DNA of 64,000 bases. It comes from Flavobacterium aquariorum. GTDB lineage: Bacteria > Bacteroidota > Bacteroidia > Flavobacteriales > Flavobacteriaceae. Shown one piece after another: positions 5,186 to 37,678 of this stretch. The stretch is taken from the NCBI RefSeq assembly GCF_003254745.1, contig NZ_QKXH01000011.1, positions 62,001-126,000 of the forward strand, written 5' to 3'. Below the pieces are notes generated by a model that had not been told where the DNA came from, did no database searches, and worked only from the letters and a program-made list of their open reading frames with translations. The position numbers and the translations under genes are program-made. The stretch's first letter is position 1; every line of letters begins with the position of its first letter.

Positions 5186-5296
5186 AGTGTTATCTTTCCA
5201 CGTTTGGCGTGGTAGAATGCAGCACCTTCTTCGATAAATCGAAGGGTTGCTAAGGCTTCATCGGGTCTAATCCCTCTGCCTTTCTTTATAACATTT
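5186..5296 (-). promoter_or_regulatory. SAM-I (S-box) riboswitch
   Basis: On the minus strand the leader of metX1 carries the S-box hallmarks in order: a 5' GAAAGGCAGAGGGATTAGA segment, CCCGATGAAGCC, TTAGCAACCC, a small hairpin CTTCGATTTATCGAAG, AAGGTGCTGCATTC, then a P4-like hairpin and closing GATAACAC. Established S-box RNAs bind S-adenosylmethionine and switch off Met genes. No strong U-tailed terminator follows it, only a short AACTAG/CTAG stem near 5163-5176. Control might therefore act on translation of the TTG-started metX1. Confidence 0.88.
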
Positions 5297-5527: not shown

Positions 5528-5737
5528 TCAAATGAAAAGAGTTTCGTTTTCTTTAGAGTACATATGAAACAATAAAGAACTTTTGCCTTTTCTAGCTTTC
5601 AAATCGAAGTTCGCATCTACATGAAATCTTGTATGATCCAACTCTTTAGTTGGGTCAACAGCTTCCACCTTTATTGCTTTTAAAATTCCTTTTTTTAGTA
5701 ACTCTACTCTACTTGTGATATATGTTATCGTTTTCAT
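5528..5737 (-). CDS. Small hypothetical protein (69 aa)
   Basis: A 69-codon ORF starting with ATG at 5737, lysine-rich at its N terminus (MKTITYITSRVELLKKGI). I recognise no family. It follows the metY remnant by 121 bases on the same strand. It may be a genuine small gene or leftover sequence from the decay of a metY-containing unit. No ribosome binding site stands out. Confidence 0.4.
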   Translation of the reverse strand: MKTITYITSRVELLKKGILKAIKVEAVDPTKELDHTRFHVDANFDLKARKGKSSLLFHMYSKENETLFI

Positions 5738-5858: not shown

Positions 5859-6110
5859 TTATGCTTGTAATTCGGTAAAAACTCTTGGTAAACAACAGAC
5901 TTTTAAATTTTTCCGATTTTCTATTCCTATTGAGAGTCGAATCAAATCTTTCTTTATTCTCTTGACGACCTGCTCTATATTTGTCATGTGCTGACCTCGT
6001 ATACTGGCTGGATGCATAGTAAAGGATTTGGTATTTTTAATAGTCGCCGAAATAGAAAATAACTTTATATCGTCGGCCATATGTTTTCCGGTAAATTTTA
6101 TTGAACTCAT
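5859..6110 (-). pseudogene. metY remnant (C-terminal fragment only)
   Basis: This 83-codon ORF matches the C-terminal end of the intact MetY encoded at 7879-9171. The blocks KLFSISATIKNTKSF, MHPASIRGQH and KKDLIRLSIGIEN line up with KLFSLLANIGDTKSL, IHPASTTHQQ and TKDLIRLSVGLED. About 350 N-terminal residues, including the PLP lysine, are missing. The homologous part has no stop codon, so the fragment may still be translated. It lies directly behind a tandem pair of Met/Cys attenuators like those before the intact gene, which suggests it is the leftover of a duplicated metY unit. It cannot be a functional sulfhydrylase. Confidence 0.75.
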
Positions 6111-6199: not shown

Positions 6200-6245
6200 G
6201 AAAAACAAAAAACCCTTTTAGACACATATCCAAAAGGGTTTTAAG
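6200..6245 (-). terminator. Attenuator terminator before the metY remnant (proximal)
   Basis: On the minus strand, AAAACCCTTTT and AAAAGGGTTTT (6209-6219 and 6232-6242) form an 11-bp stem with a 12-base loop, followed by a U-rich tail. The 5' arm contains CTTTTGGA (minus strand of 6229-6236). This is complementary to TCCAAAAG (minus strand of 6264-6271) just after the leader stop codon, giving an 8-bp competing anti-terminator. Confidence 0.85.
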
Positions 6246-6272
6246 TTGTATGATAAACTTATACTTTTGGAA

Positions 6273-6365
6273 TCAGTAGATACAAATACACATCATGGCG
6301 TAAATACACATCATCATCGTCTTTGCCTTGCAAATGGTAACCTTAATAGTGTCGAGTTGTTGCAT
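6273..6365 (-). CDS. Met/Cys-rich leader peptide (proximal, before metY remnant)
   Basis: A 30-codon ORF (ATG 6363-6365, TGA 6273-6275) whose second half is TMMMCIYAMMCICIY: three adjacent Met codons, a Met pair and three Cys within 14 codons. A shorter form could start at the internal ATG triplet, since AAGG lies about eight bases before it. The stop codon sits one base before the anti-terminator arm. By analogy with classical leader-peptide attenuation, ribosomes starved for Met-tRNA or Cys-tRNA would stall in the cluster and let the anti-terminator form. Sequence design is seen directly; function is inferred. Confidence 0.65.
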   Translation of the reverse strand: MQQLDTIKVTICKAKTMMMCIYAMMCICIY

Positions 6366-6419
6366 ATTTAATTATTGATTTACTTATTCTTATTGTTTTT
6401 TTAACCTTTAAATTTCAAA

Positions 6420-6452
6420 AAAAAACCTCCCAGTTTAATTGGGAGGTTTTTT
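6420..6452 (-). terminator. Attenuator terminator before the metY remnant (distal)
   Basis: Minus strand stem AAAACCTCCCA / TGGGAGGTTTT (6422-6432 with 6440-6450) followed by a run of U. The 5' arm ACCTCCC is complementary to GGGAGGT at the end of the upstream leader ORF (6488-6494), a 7-bp anti-terminator. Confidence 0.85.
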
Positions 6453-6479: not shown

Positions 6480-6551
6480 CTATATACACCTCCCCTTGCA
6501 GGTTTTCACCTGAATGGCTTTTTTTGACATATTGCATAGATTAAATTTCAT
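6480..6551 (-). CDS. Degenerate Met/Cys leader peptide (distal, before metY remnant)
   Basis: A 23-codon ORF (ATG 6549-6551, TAG 6480-6482). It begins MKFNLCNM, closely like MKLMMCNM of the distal leader before the intact metY, so the two are probably duplicates. Here only two Met and three Cys codons remain, and the cluster of the intact copy has been lost. The anti-terminator pairing is still present. This looks like a regulatory leader under relaxed selection. Confidence 0.5.
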   Translation of the reverse strand: MKFNLCNMSKKAIQVKTCKGRCI

Positions 6552-7878: not shown

Positions 7879-9171
7879 CTATACCAATTGAGGCGTTTTG
7901 ATAGTTTCAAAAACAGCTTTTAAATCTGCTTTCAAATCCTCTATATCTTCTAATCCAACAGACAGTCGAATTAAATCTTTAGTTACTCCAGTTGCAATTT
8001 GCTCCTCTTCGGACAATTGCTGATGTGTTGTACTGGCAGGATGTATAATTAAGGATTTGGTATCCCCAATATTGGCCAACAAAGAAAACAACTTGGTATT
8101 GTCAGCTACTTTTTTGGCAGCGTCAAAGCCCGCTTTTAGTCCAAAAGTCACCACGCCACTTTGTCCCTTTGGCAAATATTTTTGCGCTAAAACATAATAC
8201 TTACTCGATTTAAGTCCCGGATAATTTACCCAAGCCACTTCCTCCTGAATTTCCAGCCATTGGGCTAACGCCAAAGCATTTTCACTGTGTCTTCGAATAC
8301 GAACTTCCAAAGTTTCTAATCCTTGAATGATTTGGAAAGCATTAAATGGACTCAAAGCTGCCCCAAAATCTCTCAAACCTTCAATTCTTACTTTTGCAAT
8401 AAAAGCTGCATTTCCTAAAGCTTCATGATAAACCAAACCGTGATACCCCACAGAAGGTTCCGTAAATTCAGGAAATTTTCCGTTACCCCAATCAAATTTC
8501 CCAGCATCTATGATGACCCCGCCCAAAGAAGTTCCGTTACCCGAAATGTATTTGGTCAGAGAGTGAATAACAATATCCGCTCCATGCTCAATTGGATTTA
8601 ATAAATAAGGCGACGCCACAGTATTATCGACAATTAAGGGAACTTTGAAAGCTTTGGCTTCATCCGAAATTGCCTTTAAATTTAGTACGTCTAACTTTGG
8701 ATTCCCTAAACTTTCTACAAAAAAAGCTCTGGTACTTTCTTTAGCGGCTTTGGTAAAATTTTCGAGATCTGATGGATCAACAAAAGTGGTTGTGATTCCT
8801 AACCTTGGGAGAGTCACTTTTAATAAATTATAAGTTCCTCCATATAAACTGTTGGAAGCCACGATATGATCACCAGCTTTTAGCAAGACCAATAATGCTG
8901 TAGAAATAGCCGACGCCCCTGAAGCGGTAACTACTGCTCCAATTCCTCCTTCCAGAGTTGCCAATCGTTGTTCCAGAATATCATTCGTTGGATTATTTAA
9001 TCTGGTGTAGATGAACCCCGCTTCGGCAAGACCAAATAAATTAGCCGCATGATCGGAATTATTAAATACATACGAAGTAGTTTGATAAATTGGAACAGCT
9101 CTGGTTCCTCCGTTTTTAGTTACGTCGTGCCCTGCATGTAATGCGTTTGTTGCGAATTTTTGTGTGCTCAT
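7879..9171 (-). CDS. metY: O-acetylhomoserine sulfhydrylase
   Basis: A 430-residue PLP-dependent enzyme that makes homocysteine from O-acetylhomoserine and sulfide. The PLP lysine is Lys207 in VIHSLTKYISGNG. The family motifs YTRLNNPTND (55-64), TASGASAI (82-89), SLYGGTYNLL (108-117) and DNTVASPYL (182-190) are all present, and the length of about 430 is typical of MetY rather than of the shorter gamma-synthases. Two tandem leader-peptide attenuators (9240-9531) precede it. A truncated relative lies at 5859-6110. metX2 follows. Confidence 0.95.
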   Translation of the reverse strand: MSTQKFATNALHAGHDVTKNGGTRAVPIYQTTSYVFNNSDHAANLFGLAEAGFIYTRLNNPTNDILEQRLATLEGGIGAVVTASGASAISTALLVLLKAGDHIVASNSLYGGTYNLLKVTLPRLGITTTFVDPSDLENFTKAAKESTRAFFVESLGNPKLDVLNLKAISDEAKAFKVPLIVDNTVASPYLLNPIEHGADIVIHSLTKYISGNGTSLGGVIIDAGKFDWGNGKFPEFTEPSVGYHGLVYHEALGNAAFIAKVRIEGLRDFGAALSPFNAFQIIQGLETLEVRIRRHSENALALAQWLEIQEEVAWVNYPGLKSSKYYVLAQKYLPKGQSGVVTFGLKAGFDAAKKVADNTKLFSLLANIGDTKSLIIHPASTTHQQLSEEEQIATGVTKDLIRLSVGLEDIEDLKADLKAVFETIKTPQLV

Positions 9172-9239
9172 AATTTTAAGTTTTAAATGTTTTATAATTA
9201 GTTTTACGATTTAGCTTTGAGTTTTGAAATGAATTCGGA

Positions 9240-9280
9240 AAACAAAAAAGCCCTTTTGGATGATTTACCAAAAGGGCTTA
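9240..9280 (-). terminator. Proximal attenuator terminator of metY
   Basis: Minus strand stem AGCCCTTTTGG / CCAAAAGGGCT (9249-9259 and 9268-9278), 11 perfect base pairs with an 8-base loop, followed by TTTTTTG. It lies between promoter-side leader and gene, about 70 bases before the metY ATG, so it must be read through for expression. The arm CTTTTGG (9268-9274) can pair instead with CCAAAAG at the end of the leader ORF (9313-9319). A small palindrome TATAGTT/AACTATA at 9279-9293 separates them. Confidence 0.9.
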
Positions 9281-9309
9281 TAGTTCAACTATAACAAGGA
9301 TTAATTCCT

Positions 9310-9378
9310 TTACTTTTGGCAATAGCAAATTGGGATGCACATACACATCATACAACACATTATCATTTTATTTACCAT
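9310..9378 (-). CDS. Met/Cys-rich leader peptide (proximal, metY)
   Basis: A 22-codon ORF (ATG 9376-9378, TAA 9310-9312) with six Met and six Cys codons, including the run MIMCCMMCMC. AAGGAG (9388-9393) lies nine bases before this ATG, a strong ribosome binding site, unusual in this AT-rich window. That favours real translation. An in-frame ATG at 9385-9387 abuts the AAGGAG and is a poorer start. The last codons contain the anti-terminator arm CCAAAAG. A ribosome that reaches the stop would mask this arm and allow termination, whereas stalling at Met or Cys codons would free it. Confidence 0.75.
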   Translation of the reverse strand: MVNKMIMCCMMCMCIPICYCQK

Positions 9379-9410
9379 TGTTTTCATCTCCTTATTTTTT
9401 TCTTACTTCT

Positions 9411-9441
9411 TCAAAAAAAAACCTCTGCTGTTGGCAGAGGT
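9411..9441 (-). terminator. Distal attenuator terminator of metY
   Basis: Minus strand ACCTCTGC / GCAGAGGT (9421-9428 and 9434-9441), 8 bp with a 5-base loop and eight U residues after it. The arm CTCTGC can pair with GCAGGG in the leader ORF (9478-9483; one G-U), giving the competing anti-terminator. Confidence 0.88.
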
Positions 9442-9462
9442 CTATATTGTTATATTTTACAA

Positions 9463-9531
9463 TTATACAATACTGCGCCCTGCGGAAGTTTTCCACATCA
9501 TATAACACATATTGCACATCATTAATTTCAT
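9463..9531 (-). CDS. Met-rich leader peptide (distal, metY)
   Basis: A 22-codon ORF (ATG 9529-9531, TAA 9463-9465) starting MKLMMCNMCYMMW: six Met and two Cys in the first 12 codons. It has the same length as the proximal leader and is followed by an attenuator. No clear ribosome binding site precedes it, as is common in Bacteroidota. Together with the proximal leader it gives two serial checks before metY. Confidence 0.65.
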   Translation of the reverse strand: MKLMMCNMCYMMWKTSAGRSIV

Positions 9532-9670
9532 TTTGTTTTTATTTGATGAGGCAAAAGTGCAAACTATTTTTTGATCCACCAAGGAAAAGTTTATTTATTT
9601 TTATAAATTCTATGTAATTAATAGAACTTGTTAAATTCCTCTTAATAAATTAAAAAAAACAAAAGAATAA

Positions 9671-9700: not shown

Positions 9701-9709
9701 CACCCGAAT

Positions 9710-9808
9710 ATAAGAGGAAAAATTTGAACTGATTGCAACCTCTTCATAATGAAATGGATTCATTATGGATGCTGAAAAATTTTCAGTAGAAAAAATGCTA
9801 AAGCAGAA
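9710..9808 (+). promoter_or_regulatory. SAM-II-type riboswitch with long loop (metK leader)
   Basis: AAGAGG (9712-9717) pairs with CCTCTT (9739-9744). The enclosed ATTTGAACTGATTGCAA resembles the SAM-II core between its P1 strands. After P1 comes an inserted hairpin CATAATGAA/TTCATTATG (9744-9764), then AAAAAATGCTAAAGCAG (9790-9806), which resembles the conserved 3' GCTAAA segment that closes the SAM-II pseudoknot. Long-loop SAM-II RNAs are known from Bacteroidota. SAM control of SAM synthetase makes sense. Assignment is by motif reading, not by a covariance search. Confidence 0.7.
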
Positions 9809-9871
9809 ACTCTTCTTTAGCCTTTCCAGCAATTATTTTTCCTCGATTAATTTTTAAAATTTATAATTATT

Positions 9872-33773: not shown

Positions 33774-33868
33774 TTCCTAGCCCGGATAGCAGCGGCATCC
33801 TTCTTGTTGTCTCGTTTTTTTCTAACGAGACCACAAGAAGATATAGCGGATAGCTGGAAATAGCTCCT
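33774..33868 (+). ncRNA. Flavo-1-like structured RNA
   Basis: The element runs from CCTAGCCCGGATAGCAGCGG to GATATAGCGGATAGCTGG and AAATAGCTCC, with a long central hairpin (CTTCTTGT/ACAAGAAG and GTCTCGTT/AACGAGAC). This layout resembles the Flavo-1 RNA motif known from flavobacteria, as I recall it. It lies in a 448-base gap before pdhB, whose promoter-like TATTTTTG is about 80 bases further on. A protein-coding role is not seen. Confidence 0.6.
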
Positions 33869-37522: not shown

Positions 37523-37556
37523 AAGCTTTATCCAGCTATCCATTACAAGCTTACTC

Positions 37557-37637
37557 AAAAACTGCTATTTTTGTAAAAAAGTAAAAAGAGCTTCCTTTGG
37601 TCGCTTTTTTACTTTCACAAAAATTAGCAGTTTTTTT
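37557..37637 (+). terminator. Large nested hairpin after the DUF5686 gene
   Basis: An outer stem AAAACTGCTA...TAGCAGTTTT encloses an inner stem AGTAAAAAGAGC / GCTTTTTTACT, ending in poly-T. It is an unusually long terminator-like structure. Confidence 0.75.
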
Positions 37638-37678
37638 CATAAGGCTTTTCATTTCCATCTAGGCTAAAAAACACAACC

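Follow-up and report, generated by a model that had tools for sequence, protein, structure and literature searches.

Ribosome-mediated transcription attenuation is classically known from the trp, his, phe, thr and ilv leaders of amino-acid operons, and in the known attenuators the choice between terminator and antiterminator is kinetic. Methionine control is usually described in terms of riboswitches, T-boxes and transcription factors. Among these, the SAM-I and SAM-II riboswitches sense SAM directly via an aptamer, without translation. The mRNAs of Bacteroidota are largely without Shine-Dalgarno (SD) sites.

Leader peptides with Cys codons have been predicted before the cys operons of Actinobacteria; the accessible portion of that report describes runs of Cys codons near the stop codon, no conserved terminator hairpin and, before Met operons, no conserved RNA structure (PMC1262725). 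Transcriptome clues to leader-peptide attenuation were obtained before amino-acid operons of Flavobacterium psychrophilum, with the pheA and hisG 5′ elements among the conserved ones (PMC9723704); the main text of that paper, in the portion available, contains no Met, Cys or metY element and 0 mentions of methionine or metY, an entry in its supplement being possible. As far as their available portions go, PMC7366714 describes Bacteroides sORFs reminiscent of leader peptides, PMC4833913 is concerned with reinitiation at leader genes and refers to an attenuation survey of 2010, and PMC2965389 states that leader peptides were then unknown outside Proteobacteria and Actinobacteria before its own Firmicutes case. 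The first-pass annotation of the DNA analyzed here regarded a dual Met/Cys leader in a flavobacterium as little or not described, in agreement with the literature searched, the available main texts of which (supplements not covered) contained no Met or Met/Cys leader attenuator.

Leaders and terminators upstream of metY

The window, i.e., the whole 64,000-nt stretch of Flavobacterium aquariorum DNA that was analyzed, contains metY with a leader-peptide attenuator proposed directly before it in the first-pass annotation. This element, leader 2, proved to be the second of a tandem pair; its partner, leader 1, lies outside the segment that had been annotated. In the order of transcription, the features are:

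9551..9584, minus strand: Bacteroidota-type promoter-like pair before leader 1, TTGG (9582-9579) and TTTTG (9556-9552)
9463..9531, minus strand: leader peptide 1, MKLMMCNMCYMMWKTSAGRSIV, 22 codons, conserved in relatives
9481..9497, minus strand: predicted protector-type (1:2) hairpin of leader 1, TGTGGAA/TTCCGCA, taking in the first bases of the leader's antiterminator arm
9478..9483, minus strand: antiterminator arm of leader 1, GCAGGG, pairing with CTCTGC (6 bp, one G-U)
9413..9441, minus strand: terminator 1 and its U-tract
9310..9387, minus strand: leader peptide 2, MKTMVNKMIMCCMMCMCIPICYCQK, 25 codons with 7 Met and 6 Cys, stop codon at 9312-9310
9320..9380, minus strand: leader-2 5′/3′ helix, CAATGGTAAAT (9380-9370) with ATTTGCTATTG (9330-9320), a proposed pause/synchronisation hairpin
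9313..9322, minus strand: antiterminator arm of leader 2, TTGCCAAAAG, 10-bp pairing with CTTTTGGTAA, one G-U
9278..9310, minus strand: hairpins A (9310-9296) and B (9294-9278), predicted to be nested inside the antiterminator loop
9244..9278, minus strand: terminator 2, 11 bp (stem 9278-9249) and U-tract to about 9244
7879..9171, minus strand: metY, O-acetylhomoserine sulfhydrylase (TIGR01326, 639 bits against a 495-bit cut-off)

Leader 2 had been read as 22 codons with six Met and six Cys, which is correct from an internal ATG at 9378; comparison with relatives places the shared start at an in-frame ATG at 9387, three codons further upstream, and gives the composition listed above. The strong AAGGAG site that had been placed nine bases before the ATG is present, but it abuts the conserved ATG at 9387 and is itself not conserved, GGAG, AGGA or GAGG occurring within 20 nt 5′ of the ORF in 3 of 68 leader-2 and 0 of 66 leader-1 ORFs. 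The start and upstream sequence of relatives thus rule out the internal start and its SD site as conserved features. The 11-bp, U-tailed terminator, put at about 70 bases from metY, was located 72 bases before the gene, and the complementarity of CCAAAAG in the last leader codons to the terminator 5′ arm CTTTTGG is present as described and extends to 10 bp.

The two strands of the window together contain 703 ATG ORFs of 8-45 codons; ranked by Met beyond the start plus Cys, the top three were leader 2 (12), a leader 2b described below (9) and leader 1 (7). The best count in 5000 dinucleotide shuffles of positions 9172-9600 was 8, against 12 in leader 2; an ORF with a count of at least 7 arose in 22 of the 5000 shuffles and two such ORFs in 0 of 5000. 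The window's own leader-1 antiterminator was not better than that of shuffled leaders (p=0.29). With patterns that were picked after inspection of the sequences, a promoter-like TTGG-N14..26-TTTG[CTA] was found 5′ of 42 of 62 leader-1 ORFs, at 18-22 nt before the ATG in 39 of the 42 (shuffled rate 0.004), and leaders 2 at 370-480 nt from metY had a promoter-like pair of their own in 40 of 51 cases (shuffled rate 0.007).

A second leader pair, diverged from the metY pair, precedes a decayed metY copy:

6480..6551, minus strand: leader 1b, MKFNLCNMSKKAIQVKTCKGRCI, before the metY relic (model R1, E=2.9e-8, whole genome)
6417..6449, minus strand: terminator 1b
6273..6365, minus strand: leader 2b, MQQLDTIKVTICKAKTMMMCIYAMMCICIY (model R2, E=1.1e-10), with the second-highest Met plus Cys count of the window
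6207..6271, minus strand: antiterminator arm TCCAAAAG (6271-6264), just 3′ of the leader 2b stop codon, and terminator 2b (6241-6207)
5859..6110, minus strand: relic of a second metY, C-terminal part (Pfam Cys_Met_Meta_PP, matched only over positions 311-373 of the 381-position profile)

The covariance models were built from relatives, R1 from leader 1 and R2 from leader 2, and their two best matches in the 4.4-Mb genome were the metY pair and this second pair, both in the same cluster. Leader 1b has a 7-bp antiterminator, GGGAGGT/ACCTCCC (p=0.026 against shuffled leaders), and leader 2b an 8-bp pairing, TCCAAAAG/CTTTTGGA (p=0.028). Weaker matches in the same genome (L198, L199, L200, L204, L207 and the best of them, L206, R2, E=6.8e-5) have terminators and no Met/Cys leader; partial-model matches (L197, L201, L202, L208) were left out of inspection.

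A small protein of 69 aa ending in SLLFHMYSKENETLFI is encoded at 5528-5737 on the minus strand of the window and had no Pfam or NCBIfam match. In the F. johnsoniae-like clade, similar ORFs of ~50-60 aa separate leader 2 from metY; L008, L012, L033 and others have such ORFs upstream of metY, and several genomes have similar ORFs of 66-69 aa before metX-like genes.

The leader ORFs are candidate translated peptides, rich, on the evidence of their sequence, in codons for the pathway's amino acid. We consider it highly probable that the two units before metY are serial ribosome-mediated transcription attenuators that sense the charging of Met-tRNA, usually together with that of Cys-tRNA.

Leader codons in relatives and before other genes

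We gathered 194 metY upstreams, mostly from Flavobacteriaceae (30 loci from a first genus search, 80 from a named-genome set and 84 fetched for genomes of the genus search), of which 178 are distinct in the last 500 nt. Of the 199 genus genomes searched, 112 with a close metY were used; the others were without a close full-length metY match, apart from G168, which was left out (match at a contig edge). Leaders rich in Met and Cys, or in Met, were found in 156 of the 178 distinct upstreams. HMMs made from nine leader-1 and nine leader-2 seeds matched leader ORFs in 125 of them at E<1, with 102 below 1e-3 and 10, accepted by eye, at 0.01 to 1; both leaders were matched in 41, leader 1 only in 36 and leader 2 only in 48, L103 being picked up by the leader-2 model though its ORF resembles leader 1. 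Inspection of the other 53 upstreams revealed, in 31 of them, an obvious ORF rich in Met/Cys or in Met with a T-run after it. Neither leader nor riboswitch was found in 7 of the 178, namely in the 1000-nt upstreams of L148, L151, L157, L158 and L176 and in those of L178 and L194, which are cut by contig ends. Conservation of the leader ORF and of the CCAAAAG/CTTTTGG pairing, on which the first-pass annotation had staked its reading, was looked for in related genomes, and both are kept there. One leader-bearing contig, L051 (CALPIE020000196.1), is titled as a Bifidobacterium breve MAG; its metY groups with Flavobacterium, and the contig is probably mislabelled or contaminated.

In the 63 best-matching rows of each leader, a selection that favours conservation, leader 2 has Cys at columns 17, 18 and 25 in 63, 62 and 63 rows and Met at column 21 in 63, and leader 1 has Met at columns 9 and 14 in 63 and 62 rows. 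Synonymous changes were in excess in leader 2 (76 against 50.2 expected; 0 of 2000 simulations) and not significantly so in leader 1 (44 against 37.2 expected; 220 of 2000 simulations), which fits leader peptides in which only some codons matter. The leaders before metY in L181-L185 are Met-only or nearly so (e.g., MNTVYTMMMTMMMWRNPQGLLFA) and point to a possible change of specificity within the genus. Met is thus the constant of the leaders, most of which also contain Cys, whereas one clade has no or almost no Cys; the specificity for Met and Cys that was first proposed is amended accordingly.

Similar leaders also precede other genes. In L216-L219, L222, L224 and L226, a leader-1-type element is followed after 65-71 nt by a gene for a TonB-dependent receptor; the receptor Plug domain was confirmed in L216, L217 and L218 and the receptors of L219, L222, L224 and L226 were recognized by similar N-termini; in L216 (G063) this leader is ~3.5 kb upstream of metY. 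Other examples precede cysE and cysK (L220, L221; gene identity tested on L220), genes like osmC with homoserine dehydrogenase or metX (L215, L225) and, in another family of the order, DUF2061 and cysH (L231/L269). One Flavobacterium cysH group, consisting of L289 and the loci of 6 close relatives found among 150 genus genomes (L293-L298), carries one or more Met/Cys leaders at each of its loci (7 of 7). Several non-metY arms are unlike the metY arms (e.g., CAAGAGGC/GCCTCTTG and CAGAGGCTT/AAGCCTCTG), and antiterminator pairing reached p<0.05 against shuffled leaders in 8 of 15 non-metY leaders outside the window.

A survey of 30 cysE and 24 cysH loci yielded convincing leaders within 1500 nt in 4 of 54 (L240, L263, L289 and L269, the last being the source locus family of the cysH query), and leaders are therefore far from universal before these genes; L243 and L286 were judged to be chance. 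At the level of the order, R1 matched 30 of 246 genomes at E<=1e-4, in 8 of 81 genera, a count that is an upper bound, since L233, L235 and L238 have no Met/Cys ORF and were judged false. These matches comprised 29 loci and L195; 27 were inspected (L195, L210 and L214 left out), and L232 and L237, cut by contig ends, could not be displayed. Searches for more examples around G451 (1 genome) and G221 (2 genomes) found only these genomes themselves. Leader composition follows gene context, the leader before cysE in L263 having 8 Cys and 3 Met and the second leader of L269 having 9 Cys and 3 Met. A sulfur amino-acid leader regulon is probable.

These compositions bear on whether the attenuators might respond mainly or only to Met, with the Cys codons being slow or rare ones that set pausing or report general sulfur stress. 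Such a response would suit the (nearly) Met-only leaders of L181-L185, the recurrence of Met codons at the same columns and the function of MetY in making a Met precursor; the Cys codons at leader-2 columns 17, 18 and 25, kept in 62-63 of the 63 best-matching rows, and the Cys-dominated leaders before cysE (L263) and cysH (L269, L293) argue against it, and we regard it as rather unlikely. The sensed event might also be a nascent-peptide or small-molecule (SAM-like) ribosome arrest within the leader instead of tRNA charging. The CCMM-like motif that recurs at about mid-length in both leaders is in keeping with arrest, but the residues around the motif vary, and leaders exist in Met-only, Met/Cys and Cys-dominated versions, as codon counting explains more readily than a single arrest motif does; we regard this explanation as improbable. 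Sensing of Met-tRNA charging, usually with Cys-tRNA charging, is the reading we retain.

Paired elements and SAM riboswitches before metY

Paired elements were compared in sets without L103, L160 and ORFs of at least 34 codons. Both terminators covary strongly: in 25 non-redundant leader-2 elements, 100% of the cells of terminator 2 were paired and 5 of its 11 pairs had double changes, and in 38 leader-1 elements terminator 1 reached 99.7%, 6 of its 8 pairs having double changes. For the antiterminator, the share of paired cells was 98.2% in leader 1 (38 sequences), where double changes were rare but affected 5 of 6 pairs, and 89.8% in leader 2 (25 sequences), where 2 of 10 pairs had them, covariation in the latter being limited because the sequence is conserved. 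Natural antiterminator variants include GCAGCG/CGCTGC in Christiangramia and Salegentibacter, GGGAG/CTCCC in L192 and TTTCCAAAAG/CTTTTGGAAA in L153. When arms were swapped in from elements with different terminators, the own arm beat the mean of the swapped arms in 52 of 68 leader-1 and 70 of 80 leader-2 elements; the pairing exceeded the 95th percentile of shuffled leaders in only 19 of 68 and 43 of 80, respectively, because the arms are short. In a few elements, e.g., leader 1 of L027 and leader 2 of L035 and L068, the best pairing is not with the expected arm. Translation-coupled attenuation by a mutually exclusive fold, as first proposed for leader 2, is supported by this conservation of leader ORF, terminator and antiterminator.

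The reading frame of the leader-1 arm, usually CCGCAGAG, differs between species: 35 of 64 rows translate it as SAE and 29 as PQR (5 of 69 leader-1 rows, L005, L088, L155, L173 and L192, are without a recognised arm), so that the nucleotide sequence is conserved and the peptide is not. The leader-2 arm nucleotides are likewise kept in L064 and L081, where the peptide differs, and L068 and L070 have the arm 3′ of the stop codon. The hairpin of leader 1 (YGGA/TCCG type) ends in the arm and had a mean energy of -5.3 against -2.5 when shuffled (53 distinct segments, L005 skipped; mean z -1.61; p<0.05 in 20 of 53), with a stem of at least 5 bp in 38 of 64 elements. A column covariation test did not support this protector, whose share of paired cells (82.6%) hardly differed from that of shuffles (82.4%), perhaps because the change of frame in leader 1 shifts the alignment. 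A spacer helix proposed between the leader-1 arm and the terminator had only 43.9% and 30.6% of its cells paired. In leader 2, 5′ codons are complementary to 3′ codons (CAATAGCAAA/TTTGCTATTG type); this helix was paired in 72.7% of cells, had a covariation score above all 500 shuffles (although one slid control exceeded it in double-changed cells, 18 to 15) and beat 95% of its own shuffles in 43 of 78 elements (L057 and L139 left out). For hairpins A and B of the leader-2 elements, the paired cells amounted to 72.1% and 73.2%, and double changes affected 4 of the 5 pairs of A and 4 of the 6 of B.

The paired elements also weigh on the idea that the short ORFs are small Met/Cys-rich proteins acting in trans, for example by binding metals or thiols, with the terminators incidental. 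Many thiols in a short peptide and the retention of the ORFs over many species would be expected of such proteins, but the C-terminal part changes frame while the arm nucleotides are kept, the arms of L068, L070 and leader 2b stand beyond the stop codon, and the N-terminal codons of leader 2 are complementary to its C-terminal ones. Together with the shift of composition to Met-only or Cys-rich by clade and gene and the lack of a Pfam match for leaders 1 and 2, this makes a protein acting in trans very improbable. The attenuator reading also bears comparison with the other devices found at this position. The window has all three of them, SAM-I, SAM-II and the leaders, within 5 kb:

5187-5294, minus strand: SAM-I riboswitch, before a metX-like gene (match below the family cut-off) and an aspartokinase/homoserine dehydrogenase gene
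9708-9811, plus strand: SAM-II riboswitch, before metK, on the strand opposite to metY

In the named-genome set, each of the 15 leaderless metY loci carries a riboswitch immediately 5′ of the gene and on its strand (14 SAM-I and, in L105, 1 SAM-II), and a riboswitch stands directly before metY in 0 of the 38 leader-bearing loci scanned, where the SAM-II matches are on the opposite strand and the SAM-I matches downstream of metY. In a FastTree phylogeny of 81 MetY proteins (66 with leaders and 15 with riboswitches), the label changes 4 times, and at least 3 of these changes are forced by starred branches. Leaders and SAM riboswitches have thus been exchanged before the same gene.

Rfam searches found no SAM aptamer before metY on the metY strand and no T-box, in either the window or positions 9170-9640, and no match at gathering thresholds for the window elements on the metY strand or for those of 20 further leader-bearing loci. 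At E<=1, the leader region of the window gave six weak matches far below the cut-offs and from no SAM family; Phe_leader (RF01859) scored 20.9 bits there against a 55-bit cut-off. Two Flavo-1 RNA matches lie elsewhere in the window (33775-33864, plus strand, and 37525-37669, minus strand). An unrecognised SAM or other riboswitch in the leader region, with the ORFs as passengers, would echo the use of SAM-I or SAM-II at the same position by relatives of metY, but it is scarcely credible given these Rfam results and paired elements that involve the ORF itself.

Stall modelling, proposed mechanism and known attenuators

Under serial attenuation, RNA polymerase would start just 5′ of leader 1. With charged Met-tRNA (and Cys-tRNA) plentiful, the ribosome would reach the leader stop codon and cover the arm in the last codons, the terminator would fold and metY would be off. 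When charging is low, the ribosome would stall in the MCCMM block and leave the arm free, which could then pair with the terminator 5′ arm before the 3′ arm is made, so that transcription would continue. As both leaders need passing, the response of metY should be multiplicative. What the sequences show is the conservation of leaders, Met/Cys codons, terminators and antiterminator arms and the exchange with SAM riboswitches; stalling, kinetic choice, read-through and the relative weight of Met and Cys are inferred from them.

We modelled folding with the ribosome stalled and the terminator 3′ arm not yet made. In leader 2 of the window, the antiterminator formed for every stall tried, with A-site codons 3-19, and was lost from codon 20; in leader 1, it was clearest with the A-site at codons 9-12. 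Across relatives, a stall at Met or Cys left at least 4 antiterminator bp in 68 of 68 leader-1 and 76 of 76 leader-2 elements, the leader-2 set of 80 having been reduced by 4 that lack a CC where one is expected. Placing the ribosome at the stop codon left them in 0, a zero that is partly geometry because the arm is under the ribosome there. With no ribosome, the antiterminator was still formed in 35 of 68 leader-1 and 74 of 76 leader-2 elements in the model. At equilibrium, the terminator wins at every stall position in the two leaders of the window (P 0.95-1.00), and the choice made by the switch must therefore be kinetic.

Taken as a whole, the observation and the core interpretation of the first-pass annotation hold and are supported at the level of sequence, Met/Cys regulation being a prediction, and the system is larger than had been noted: the attenuators are serial, they exchange with SAM riboswitches, and a sulfur regulon is probable. 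The Met/Cys sensor would be translation itself, used twice in series, and the exchange at one gene amounts to a natural experiment in which an end-product aptamer would be replaced by a sensor of tRNA charging; membership in the regulon would also predict the set of genes that these bacteria handle as sulfur amino-acid genes. More tentatively, a Flavobacteriaceae sulfur amino-acid leader regulon comprising metY, cysH, cysE-cysK, TonB-receptor and metX-type operons may exchange with SAM riboswitches, with the tandem leaders providing a two-stage logic: leader 1 would read through chiefly on a stall and leader 2 also without initiation, the pair could separate shortage of elongator from that of initiator Met-tRNA, and the Met:Cys codon ratio would be tuned per gene. 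We offer this extension as possible, and as somewhat doubtful in its entirety.

Like the classical attenuators, the metY system has a short leader ORF rich in codons for the pathway product, an intrinsic terminator before the first gene, a predicted 1:2-type hairpin and an antiterminator arm in the 3′ part of the leader. It differs from them in using Met and Cys codons, in having two complete attenuators in series, in its occurrence in another phylum, in the extra hairpins inside the leader-2 antiterminator loop and in having an SD-like sequence in only a few cases. With the Actinobacteria leaders, as described in the available part of PMC1262725, it shares runs of Cys codons before sulfur-assimilation genes, and unlike them it has intrinsic terminators, Met codons and tandem copies. 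The F. psychrophilum cases, as far as they are given in the accessible text of PMC9723704, come from the same family and likewise concern attenuation before amino-acid operons. In other Flavobacteriaceae genera, the position that the leaders occupy before metY is taken by SAM-I (RF00162) or SAM-II (RF01726).
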